Shown in pieces: positions 2,850 through 6,323 of a stretch of DNA of 10,073 nucleotides (within the stretch, counting starts at the first letter, position 1; each line of letters starts with the position of its first letter). A program made the position numbers and the translations under genes. The notes under the pieces were generated by a model. That model was not told the origin of the DNA, made no database searches, and was given only the letters and a program-made list of their open reading frames with translations. Source of the stretch: Sneathiella sp. (GTDB lineage: Bacteria; Pseudomonadota; Alphaproteobacteria; Sneathiellales; Sneathiellaceae). The stretch spans positions 1 to 10,073 of the forward strand of contig NVRR01000094.1 of NCBI GenBank assembly GCA_002732675.1. The letters run 5' to 3'.

Positions 2850-3929
2850 CTAGGCCATGTTGACGATAAATCCGTCTGTTGGGGCTGTGGTCCCGGCGAC
2901 AAGGGCGGCGTAGGTATCGCGGGCAGAGGCGAGCCCCCTTCCCTCTTTCACGGTCAGCCAGGATTCACTTTTAATTGCCAGGTCCCGCCAGGCATCCATG
3001 GTTTTAGTCTGCGTAACGCTCGCGCCCCATTCTTCTTGCCGTTTTTTAATTTGTGCGGGGGCAAAGAACATTTTCGGTTTTGGTCCCTGAAGGCCCTCTG
3101 TGGGCCGGAATTTATCCCAGTGACTGATACCAACGGAACTGCTGAGCCGTAACTGATCGCCGAGGCGGGTATGGACAGCAATGCGGACATCGGCATTGCC
3201 GGACATATCAATATAGACAGATGGGACCTGGCTCACATCGTTGCTAATATTGTCATATGTCACCACTTGATCGCAGATATTGCGTTCTTTCACGAAGGCT
3301 TCGTTGCGGCTGGAGGTCAGTCCGATAACAGCGGGATGAGGGGCCGCATGGTCATGCAAAAGCTGCAGGACGCCAAGCGCCGTTTTGCTGGAGGCGCTAC
3401 CGAGCAGGATCTGTTCGGCGCCAAAATACTCATTATCCAGAAGATAGTCATAAATCATATAGGATGTCGCAAACAGCGGGTATAAAATCGCCTGCAGGTC
3501 TTCAAGCGCCGGATCGTGGGTTGGAATAGCGGCCAATCGCACATACGCGTTATAAACCGATGGCAGTGCTGACCGATGGGCCATTCCGTCCGTAAAGGCA
3601 TGGGCCCGCACACGGGCCGGTTGGACGACAAGTTCTTCCGCCATGGGAAAATAGCCATAGACGCGCTCGCTAGGCTCAATGCCATCGCATTTACTTTCGA
3701 TGACTTCGGCATGGCCCCATACCGGGACAATTCCCCATCCTTCGTCGGGTGCGGGGAAAAACTTCCAGTATCCGATCATGTCCCCCGCGACCGCATAGGT
3801 GACATTGTTGGCCGTCAGGGCGAAGCGGTCAATTTTAAGCCGCACATCTCCTGCAGCAAGCGGCGGTGACGGGGTTTCGACAATTTTCGTTTGTTTTATA
3901 TCGGATTTATTGACCAGAAGCTGTTGCAT
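2850..3929 (-). CDS. DUF2855 family protein (medium-chain dehydrogenase-like fold)
   Basis: A 359-residue cytoplasmic protein resembling the DUF2855 family. ATG at 3929 is preferred because the purine-rich GGTGGGGGAA lies just before it; an in-frame ATG at 3959 sits inside a small hairpin and lacks a site. The N-terminal half looks like the GroES-like domain of medium-chain dehydrogenases/reductases: GDVRLKIDRFALTANNVTYA at 27-46, then GDMIGYW and a WGIVPVWGHAEV segment. Residues 173-190 (EQILLGSASSKTALGVLQLL region) resemble the nucleotide-binding turn of the Rossmann part, although the classic GxGxxG is changed to GSASSKTALG. Residues 236-245 (PSVYIDMSGN) fit a later strand. No zinc ligands typical of alcohol dehydrogenases are evident. 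An NAD(P)-dependent reductase role is possible but unproven. It lies 72 bases downstream of the double-ACT gene and may share its transcript. Confidence 0.82.
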   Translation of the reverse strand: MQQLLVNKSDIKQTKIVETPSPPLAAGDVRLKIDRFALTANNVTYAVAGDMIGYWKFFPAPDEGWGIVPVWGHAEVIESKCDGIEPSERVYGYFPMAEELVVQPARVRAHAFTDGMAHRSALPSVYNAYVRLAAIPTHDPALEDLQAILYPLFATSYMIYDYLLDNEYFGAEQILLGSASSKTALGVLQLLHDHAAPHPAVIGLTSSRNEAFVKERNICDQVVTYDNISNDVSQVPSVYIDMSGNADVRIAVHTRLGDQLRLSSSVGISHWDKFRPTEGLQGPKPKMFFAPAQIKKRQEEWGASVTQTKTMDAWRDLAIKSESWLTVKEGRGLASARDTYAALVAGTTAPTDGFIVNMA

Positions 3930-4001
3930 TTCGTTCCCCCACCTGCGGCAATACCGCATTTCCTTTTTGTTAGTCGGATGATGGGCGCGTGTCCCGGAAT
4001 G

Positions 4002-4820: not shown

Positions 4821-6323
4821 ATGCTTATAGGCGATATCTTATTGGCGCAAAATCTTGTGACGCCTGAGGATATAAAGATTGCGGTTCATCGCCAGAAAGA
4901 AAATGGCGGACGCCTTGGGGAGAACCTGGTTGCGCTGGGAGCCCTGACGCAGGAGCAGTTGGACAAGGCAATCTATGAAGCGCCGCAGGCGCCGAAATCC
5001 ATTGAGGATACCGGGATTCCGCTGGCCAATCTGATGCGGATTTTCTTCAAGCTGATCTATATCAACAGTCTGGAGACTGCTTCTGAAATTTCCAATGCCA
5101 TGAAGCTGCCGATCGGCGTTGTAAACAAGCTTATCCAGCAATCCGGTGACCGCAAATTCCTGGAATCTCTGGGCACTGCTGATAAATCAACATTCTCGGA
5201 AACCCGCTATGTCATGACCGAAGCCGGCAAACGCTATGCTATCGAAAGCTTGGATCAGAACCAATATGTGGGTCCGGCTCCCGTGTCGTTGAAAGCCTAT
5301 CAAATCCGGATCAGCCTGCAGAAAATCACCAATGAGCGGGTTGAGCAGTCAAAAATTGATGCAAGTTTTGAAAGTCTTGTTATTGCCGATGATTTTGTCC
5401 GCCGTCTTGGGCCGGGCATCAATGCCGGTAAAAGTATTCTCCTCTATGGCCCTCCGGGCAACGGAAAAACCACGGTTGCGGAAAAAGTCGCCGAGATTTT
5501 TGCCAACGTCATTTACGTGCCTTATTGCTTTGAAGTTGATGGCCAGATCATCAAGGTGTTTGATCCAAGCGTTCATAAACCCATTCTCGGTCATGAAACC
5601 AAGAAAGTCGCAAGCTCCGGTTTGCGCCGGGAAGAATTTGACGGCCGCTGGGTGCCCTGTGAGCGCCCGATTGTCATCACCGGCGGCGAACTGACCCTGG
5701 AGATGCTTGATTTGAGCTTTAACGCCCATGCCAAATATTATGAAGCACCGCTGCATGTGAAGGCATCCAACGGCACCTTTATCATCGATGACTTTGGTCG
5801 CCAGCTGGTAAGCCCGGAAGACCTTCTCAATCGCTGGATTGTCCCGCTGGAAAGCCGCGTCGATTACCTGAAATTGCATACGGGTAAAAGTTTCTCTCTA
5901 CCATTTGACGAGCTTGTCATCTTTTCGACCAACTTGTCGCCGGACGATCTGATGGATCCGGCATTCCTGCGTCGTATTCCCTATAAGCTTGAAACGGTGG
6001 GTCCGACAAAAGAACAGTTTTTCAAAATTTTCCAGATGGTTGGTGCGGCTCGCGGATTGGAAATCACCGAAGATATCATGGACATTGTCATCGAAGAGTT
6101 GCAGATTAAAAATAAATTTGAATTGGCCTGCTATCAGCCAAAATTTATTGTCGATCAGATTATCGCTGCCTGTAAATACAGTGGCACAGAGCCCCGTGTG
6201 GATCAGCAGCTTGTCGTTGATGCGCTCAAGAACCTGTATACCTCAAGTGCCAAGGGCTCCGGTAAAACAGCGGCAAAATCACGCAACAAGAATCCAGAAG
6301 AACCAATGGCCGAGGCCGTCTGA
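4821..6323 (+). CDS. MshEN - winged-helix-like - AAA+ ATPase fusion protein
   Basis: A 500-residue cytoplasmic protein; the ATG at 4821 has GGAG about 7 bases upstream. Residues 2-54 form a tandem MshEN signature: motif 1 at 2-25 (IGDILLAQNL through HRQ), a 5-residue link, and motif 2 at 31-54 (RLGENLVALGALTQEQL through YEA). This is the layout of the c-di-GMP-binding domain of MshE/GspE-type ATPases, although motif 1 has Leu2 where Arg is usual. Residues about 72-145 resemble a winged helix (TASEIS, GVVNKLIQQ, then RYVMTEAGKRYA). The AAA+ part has Walker A at 210-218 (GPPGNGKTT), Walker B at 320-324 (FIIDD), sensor-1-like FSTN at 368-371 and RR at 384-385. It is not a secretion-type GspE ATPase, since the Asp/His boxes are absent. 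The tail from about 476 is charged and probably disordered. Its partner is unknown. It ends 2 bases from the convergent hutC-like gene. Confidence 0.85.
   Translation: MLIGDILLAQNLVTPEDIKIAVHRQKENGGRLGENLVALGALTQEQLDKAIYEAPQAPKSIEDTGIPLANLMRIFFKLIYINSLETASEISNAMKLPIGVVNKLIQQSGDRKFLESLGTADKSTFSETRYVMTEAGKRYAIESLDQNQYVGPAPVSLKAYQIRISLQKITNERVEQSKIDASFESLVIADDFVRRLGPGINAGKSILLYGPPGNGKTTVAEKVAEIFANVIYVPYCFEVDGQIIKVFDPSVHKPILGHETKKVASSGLRREEFDGRWVPCERPIVITGGELTLEMLDLSFNAHAKYYEAPLHVKASNGTFIIDDFGRQLVSPEDLLNRWIVPLESRVDYLKLHTGKSFSLPFDELVIFSTNLSPDDLMDPAFLRRIPYKLETVGPTKEQFFKIFQMVGAARGLEITEDIMDIVIEELQIKNKFELACYQPKFIVDQIIAACKYSGTEPRVDQQLVVDALKNLYTSSAKGSGKTAAKSRNKNPEEPMAEAV

Follow-up and report, generated by a model that had tools for sequence, protein, structure and literature searches.

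A tandem MshEN module on a winged-helix AAA+ protein of Sneathiella sp., a candidate accessory ATPase of Tad pili

A stretch of 10,073 nucleotides of Sneathiella sp. DNA (contig NVRR01000094.1 of assembly GCA_002732675.1), referred to here as the window, contains an open reading frame at 4821-6323 of the plus strand, which was confirmed among the open reading frames of the window as earlier described, and which encodes a protein of 500 amino acids (aa). From its N- to its C-terminus, this protein consists of a tandem MshEN motif, which resembles the cyclic di-GMP (c-di-GMP) module of the pilus ATPase MshE, a stretch predicted as a winged helix, and an AAA+ domain other than that of traffic ATPases. 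In the samples of three phyla, we found co-occurrence of the genes of Tad (type IVc, Flp) pili with the winged-helix/AAA+ core, whether or not MshEN is attached to it. Based on sequence comparisons, we favor, with a probability of roughly 0.55, the interpretation that the product of the gene is an accessory AAA+ ring of the Tad pilus system, and that the activity of this ring would be set by c-di-GMP. An MshEN-controlled pilus ATPase is of a kind that is already known, and what is unusual here is where the sensor sits. An AAA+ ring with a sensor-like module may be a route of c-di-GMP control over Tad pili. A Tad-linked AAA+ protein with a putative c-di-GMP sensor module of its own is a concrete, testable candidate, and it suggests an output for a large family, with at least 8000 related database proteins at E 1e-5.

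Co-occurrence and linkage with Tad pilus genes

Relatives of the protein span Alphaproteobacteria, Acidobacteriota, Nitrospirota, and other groups; among the 120 matches listed, the names were AAA family ATPase, hypothetical protein, and other general ATPase names. For the survey of relatives, 80 loci of 558 confirmed were kept. Gene calls in the fetched loci were our own longest-open-reading-frame choices and not annotations, proteins with MshEN (MshEN+) and without it (MshEN-less) were told apart with a hidden Markov model of our own (over 10 bits), and Tad proteins in the sample were identified via Pfam and NCBIfam, with CpaF below the TIGR03819 cut-off (e.g., 344.7 vs. 373). In 8/40 relative loci with long flanks, the CpaE, CpaF, TadB, and TadC genes were located upstream of the AAA+ gene. 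All eight loci, four of them acidobacterial and four from one alphaproteobacterial family, were MshEN-less, and in all of them the gene was located 1.2-2.3 kb from TadC. Its position was downstream of TadC and co-directional with it, an arrangement also present in genome G668. Between TadC and the AAA+ gene, acidobacterial Tad clusters (L143, L144, L146) contain two conserved small genes, one of which was identified in L144 as DUF192 (PF02643).

As Tad genes were present in these eight MshEN-less loci, we tested the association at the level of whole genomes, with CpaB (TIGR03177) as the Tad marker. In Alphaproteobacteria, CpaB was present in 21/22 genomes with the gene and in 115/267 genomes without it (p 7e-7); for MshEN+ genomes alone, it was present in 16/17 (p 2.5e-5). 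Counting by alphaproteobacterial genome family, with the family lists made by hand, gave 12/12 vs. 60/~132 (p 1.5e-4). The acidobacterial sample (class of G324) had CpaB in 61/61 genomes with the gene and in 55/139 without it (p 3e-19), and the Nitrospirota sample (phylum of G330) in 6/7 and 7/161, respectively (p 4e-7). In G244, the alphaproteobacterial exception, CpaF is split between two contigs; one of these also carries the gene, ~11 kb from the CpaF piece there. The Nitrospirota exception is G655. Additionally, the copy number of the gene in Acidobacteriota tracked the number of CpaB genes (Spearman 0.52), and 22/25 single-CpaB genomes had one copy. In the alphaproteobacterial sample, no association was seen for the GspE-like control (5/22 vs. 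70/267, p 0.72), counted by TIGR02533 at E 1e-100, which also includes related traffic ATPases (14/289 genomes were over the cut-off).

As to MshEN+ copies, a lead was provided by the locus of a 'Nitrospirae bacterium' (L116), whose protein scores 60.1 bits (1.3e-16) on the NCBIfam model NF053729, and the Nitrospirota sample was therefore examined. Its MshEN+ copies were all near a Tad locus (4/4): three faced TadE-type, CpaB, and CpaC genes head to head, with CpaB 1.6-1.75 kb away, and the fourth was encoded on the strand of CpaB, 12.7 kb from it. Furthermore, G164 has an MshEN+ copy with a weakened motif (Pro31) ~9-16 kb from TadC, CpaF, and CpaB, with TadE and Tad-domain genes in between. 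The first-pass annotation of the window had left the output of the protein open, with DNA or protein remodeling as its guess; a survey of the neighbors of homologues, of the type that it had proposed, points to Tad pili, although outside the window's genus.

The MshEN module and the ATPase core

The same annotation had described two MshEN motifs with 24+5+24 spacing, heading an ATPase not of the secretion class, and was right on both points. Residues 2-25 and 31-54 fit the published motif (PMC5013675), the protein has no PF00437 (T2SSE) match, and NF053729 ('c-di-GMP_motif, MshE-related') matches residues 3-51 (E 7e-15) with 54.6 bits against a cut-off of 38, a score which indicates that the tandem motif is not due to chance. 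A profile of 115 sequences matched PilF (6f8l, 2e-16) and the crystal chain of MshE with c-di-GMP (5htl, 1.5e-8, residues 3-56 to 10-63). Of the profiles that the annotation had proposed for a search, AAA profiles matched, but the Pfam MshEN model PF05157 gave no match in the 500-aa protein above the gathering score, and we do not claim membership in that Pfam family. In the window's genome, PF05157 had one weak match elsewhere only.

In motif 1 of the window protein, Leu2 is present instead of Arg, and Gly4 and Gln25 are retained; in motif 2, Arg31 and Gly33 are retained, and Ala54 is present instead of the final Gln. Both key glycines and the hydrophobic cluster positions are therefore present. 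Among 78 non-redundant MshEN+ sequences, the window's own counted in, Gly4 together with Gly33 was kept in 62, Gln25 in 62, and Arg31 in 56, while position 2 was Arg in 38 and Leu in 16. By these counts, the sensor is generally conserved but has decayed in some lineages. Neither a missing MshEN match nor a loss of Arg31 and of the RLGxxL pattern among homologues, named in advance as grounds for abandoning the module, was what we found.

The worry that Leu2 indicates lost binding turned out to be misplaced. Leu is the residue at this position in 16/78 sequences, and the GSPII-B domain of PilF, in which Lys and Leu occupy the Arg positions, was reported to bind c-di-GMP at 6 nM, with the motif extended to R/K/L there (PMC11731258), a range that includes Leu2 and Arg31 at position 1 of the two motifs. 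Changes of Arg9, Asp12, or Gln32 in MshE were reported to cost at most about fivefold in affinity (PMC5013675), and, judging by Gln32, one missing Gln need not abolish binding. The earlier term 'c-di-GMP-responsive' is thus backed by the NF053729 match and the residue counts, both of them properties of the sequence, and lost binding stays an alternative, weighed below, because the Gln of the second motif is absent throughout.

The ATPase motifs were all as earlier described, namely Walker A GPPGNGKT (residues 210-217), Walker B FIIDD (320-324), and sensor FSTN (368-371). Across the 115 sequences, no variation was seen in FSTN, in the DD, or in the greater part of Walker A, and the remaining Walker A positions are conserved in at least 90%. 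Pfam matches in the AAA+ part were to general P-loop models, PF00004 among them. The matches listed in a structure search with the whole model span mostly residues 173-487, and the absence of MshE from them is therefore uninformative. The closest solved fold to this AAA+ domain is PDB 8p49, an uncharacterized archaeal protein of Pyrococcus furiosus (Q8U0N8), and no paper containing that accession was found. Between MshEN and the AAA+ domain, AlphaFold2 predicted helices at residues 68-82, 87-94, and 98-110 and strands at 114-119 and 128-132, with a predicted local distance difference test score (pLDDT), taken by blocks, of 86-97, except for 69 at residues 121-130; the block score of the MshEN helices was 67-85. 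The predicted order of elements agrees with the earlier description of this stretch as similar to a winged helix-turn-helix (HTH), but no Pfam HTH model matches there.

Three known types of ATPase were considered and rejected. As a traffic ATPase (GspE/PilB/MshE), the protein lacks the T2SSE domain, and the closest model of this type among the best 25 of 41 NCBIfam matches was VirB11, with 14.6 bits against a cut-off of 250. As a sigma54 activator, it has no PF00158 match and no GAFTGA in its sequence. Its likeness to the anti-phage ATPase IetA/IteA extends only to the neighborhood of the P-loop (NF042959, 35.1 bits vs. a cut-off of 510), to which the best PADLOC stretches are also limited.

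Like MshE, PilB, PilF, and GspE, the window protein has an N-terminal tandem 24+5+24 module of the c-di-GMP type on a ring ATPase associated with type IV-type pili. Unlike them, it belongs to another AAA+ class without the T2SSE domain, it has the predicted winged helix in place of MshEN_C, and its family is linked to Tad pili, whose CpaF motors gave no NF053729 match (0/6 scanned). NfrB and other MshEN fusions (REC, HD-GYP, CheA, CheX, cyclase, kinase; PMC5013675) are similar to it in having the sensor as a bolt-on input. The main-text passages of PMC5013675 that were consulted, as distinct from its Supplementary Table 4, which was outside our scope, do not name a fusion of MshEN to this AAA+ class. 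Among the papers listed in our literature searches, no title or abstract opening describing an MshEN-AAA+ fusion or family was found, with supplements and most subscription papers outside the scope of the search.

Proposed mechanism and competing explanations

By analogy with MshEN structures, the N-terminal four-helix bundle would bind one c-di-GMP, and on binding it would shift relative to the winged helix and to the ring, which is probably a hexamer. This shift could switch an ATP-driven remodeling activity, whose target in the Tad system would most likely be the CpaF motor, the TadB/TadC platform, or CpaE. The c-di-GMP control of Tad pili would then sit on a partner ring and not on the motor, as the scanned CpaF motors, unlike MshE and PilF, have no MshEN match, and the MshEN-less relatives would be versions without c-di-GMP input. 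CpaF has been described as the driver of both extension and retraction (PMC11656802). One paper, whose available text does not mention c-di-GMP, raises the possibility of a not yet identified regulatory element behind direction switching (PMC12019362), and high c-di-GMP was reported to promote Tad retraction in Caulobacter, in a paper whose available text is free of 'receptor' words (PMC6581867). As a tentative extension, the c-di-GMP-gated AAA+ protein might act on the bifunctional CpaF machine and tip it between extension and retraction, and would then be the missing link between c-di-GMP and the direction of Tad pili.

The genomic context of c-di-GMP signaling agrees with such a role only in part. 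The window's genome has five matches to GGDEF proteins, and GGDEF matches were found in 42/44 genome handles with the gene (two of which, G281 and G319, have identical matches and look like one genome). Of the two genomes without GGDEF, G088 carries a degenerate MshEN (Ser4, Pro31, Thr33) and G318 a copy without MshEN, a pattern which fits a c-di-GMP role of the module, but comprises two cases only. In a set of 289 genomes, GGDEF was present in 21/22 genomes with the gene (p 0.007).

Several results weigh against an accessory Tad ring controlled by c-di-GMP. As GGDEF is common anyway (210/289 genomes), and as MshEN-less and degenerate copies are also found in GGDEF-rich genomes, the co-occurrence with GGDEF is weak evidence of binding, and we discarded it as such. 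Gln is present at position 54 in 0/78 MshEN+ sequences, and conservation at the contact positions does not significantly exceed that in the remainder of the module (p 0.06). The p values overstate independence because the genomes are related, and 115/136 Tad-bearing alphaproteobacterial genomes lack the gene. At least two Tad genes were present in only 1/112 MshEN+ loci, that of L116, vs. 8/60 MshEN-less ones, counts in which duplicates were retained and some genes occur in more than one locus, and beyond which three further MshEN+ loci and one further MshEN-less locus of Nitrospirota are in or beside a tad locus. Among loci of at least 15 kb, two or more Tad genes were found in 0/46 MshEN+ and 6/28 MshEN-less loci. 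The gene is apart from Tad genes in the window, as it is in almost every MshEN+ locus examined outside Nitrospirota. This separation is not only due to fragmented assemblies, as the gene and CpaB are ~2 Mb apart in the one-contig genome G011 of the same genus.

A different explanation, which we consider fairly unlikely, is that the protein is a c-di-GMP-dependent transcription regulator, with the winged helix bound to tad promoter DNA and the AAA+ ring controlling oligomerization in a FleQ-like manner. It is kept alive by the head-to-head layout of the gene and Tad genes. FleQ is indeed a c-di-GMP-controlled AAA+ ring, with a core fold similar to that of the window protein according to the structure search, but in FleQ it is the ATPase domain that binds c-di-GMP (PMC5013675), whereas the window protein has a separate sensor-like module. 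A regulator of this type is at odds with the lack of Pfam HTH, PF00158, and GAFTGA matches noted above, with the winged-helix region (residues 66-134), which is not strongly basic (8 K+R vs. 7 D+E), and with the co-directional position of the gene downstream of TadC in G668 and in the eight MshEN-less Tad loci described above. Moreover, winged helices often bind proteins.

Alternatively, the MshEN bundle may have lost ligand binding and serve only as a docking or oligomerization module on a Tad-linked AAA+ protein. The absence of the second Gln in 78/78 sequences, the absence of one or both key glycines in 16/78, and the occurrence of whole-module losses would all fit this, as would the GSPII-A domain of PilF, which has one good and one degenerate motif and was reported not to bind c-di-GMP (PMC11731258). 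Nevertheless, we regard it as unlikely. The window protein retains both glycines, the hydrophobic cluster positions, Gln25, and Arg31, and scores well above the NF053729 cut-off; the small cost of the Gln32 change in MshE and the tolerance of GSPII-B at the Arg position argue in the same direction, as does the finding that the degenerate copy of G088 occurs in a genome without GGDEF matches. That the protein is a general remodeling AAA+ ATPase without a special tie to pili, co-occurring with Tad through surface lifestyle or genome size, is very unlikely: most MshEN+ lineages have no conserved neighbor outside the genus, but the association recurs in three phyla samples without a link to GspE, the copy number tracks that of CpaB, and copies placed near tad loci occur on either side of the split in the tree described below.

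Features, phylogeny, and genomic surroundings

Table 1. Coordinates in the window of the gene and of the features of its product.
Feature	Positions	Strand	Basis
MshEN-winged helix-AAA+ protein	4821..6323	+	Open reading frame, 500 aa
MshEN motif 1, residues 2-25 (Leu2, Ile3, Gly4, Ile18, Val22, Gln25)	4824..4895	+	NF053729 match, residues 3-51; PDB profile match to MshE
MshEN motif 2, residues 31-54 (Arg31, Leu32, Gly33, Leu47, Ile51; Ala54 replaces Gln)	4911..4982	+	NF053729, PDB profile, residue counts
Conserved APxAP...TG linker, residues 55-65	4983..5015	+	Alignment; open frames of MshEN-less relatives
Predicted winged helix, residues 66-134	5016..5222	+	AlphaFold2 secondary structure H-H-H-E-E; without Pfam HTH match
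AAA+ module, residues 157-475	5289..6245	+	
Walker A, residues 210-218	5448..5474	+	Pfam match, alignment of 115 sequences
Walker B, residues 320-325	5778..5795	+	Alignment of 115 sequences
Candidate pre-sensor-1 hairpin, residues 347-361	5859..5903	+	Model strands 347-351, 357-361
Sensor 1 FSTN, residues 368-371	5922..5933	+	Invariant over 115 sequences
Arg384-Arg385, candidate arginine finger (role inferred)	5970..5975	+	Invariant over 115 sequences

The assignment of the predicted hairpin in Table 1 as a pre-sensor-1 hairpin is our own reading of the model.

Many relatives lack MshEN, and their frames begin just ahead of the APxAP linker. A tree of 119 rows, made by a quick method, with a midpoint root and Shimodaira-Hasegawa-like approximate likelihood ratio test (SH-aLRT) support only, separated 29 rows, 28 of them MshEN-less, from 90 rows, 77 of them MshEN+, with seven label changes. 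Loci L014, L024, L080, L089, and L119 (duplicate, broken, or split) were left out of it, and rows at least 88% alike in the core were dropped. The tree fits a fused module that was widely kept and lost several times, but the direction of change is not readable from the tree alone. G281 carries an MshEN+ copy and an MshEN-less paralogue at separate sites of one genome (L174 and L175). In G570 (L197, 9078-10310), a few start residues, similar to the MshEN of its relative L194, and the linker remain, but the MshEN core is missing, owing perhaps to a natural deletion or to an error of assembly.

Within the genus, 22/23 other genomes carry the gene, one of them as two pieces. In G009 (C12:131432-132906), the gene was matched as two overlapping pieces; in L080 (Sneathiella glossodoripedis), the open frame covers only the 3' part, from residue 211 on, so that L080 and G009 represent a disrupted gene copy in one Sneathiella lineage. 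Elsewhere, stop-to-stop frames of 163 and 243 aa in L024 (G308) and L089 (Kordiimonadaceae), respectively, point to an apparent stop or frame break, and G308 was nonetheless counted among the genomes with the gene.

The window's genome is fragmented and 66% complete, and its Tad locus is on a separate contig (C105). There, CpaB was identified by TIGR03177, secretin/CpaC-type and CpaE-like proteins by Pfam, and CpaF by TIGR03819 with 348 bits, under the cut-off of 373, whereas CpaD, TadB, and a TadG-like gene were named from position and look only. In the window itself, the gene is neither in nor beside a tad locus and has no pilus genes among its neighbors; it stands alone between a divergent ACT-domain gene upstream and a convergent GntR/UTRA gene downstream. 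We set aside the neighborhood within the genus as a clue, as it is conserved but uninformative about function. No riboswitch or other known RNA was found in the window at gathering thresholds. On the minus strand, the window also encodes, at 321-746, a 141-aa protein with no Pfam match at 0.001, flanked by an amidohydrolase on one side and a MauG-like di-haem protein on the other, and, at 2850-3959, a DUF2855 protein (PF11017, 2e-98).
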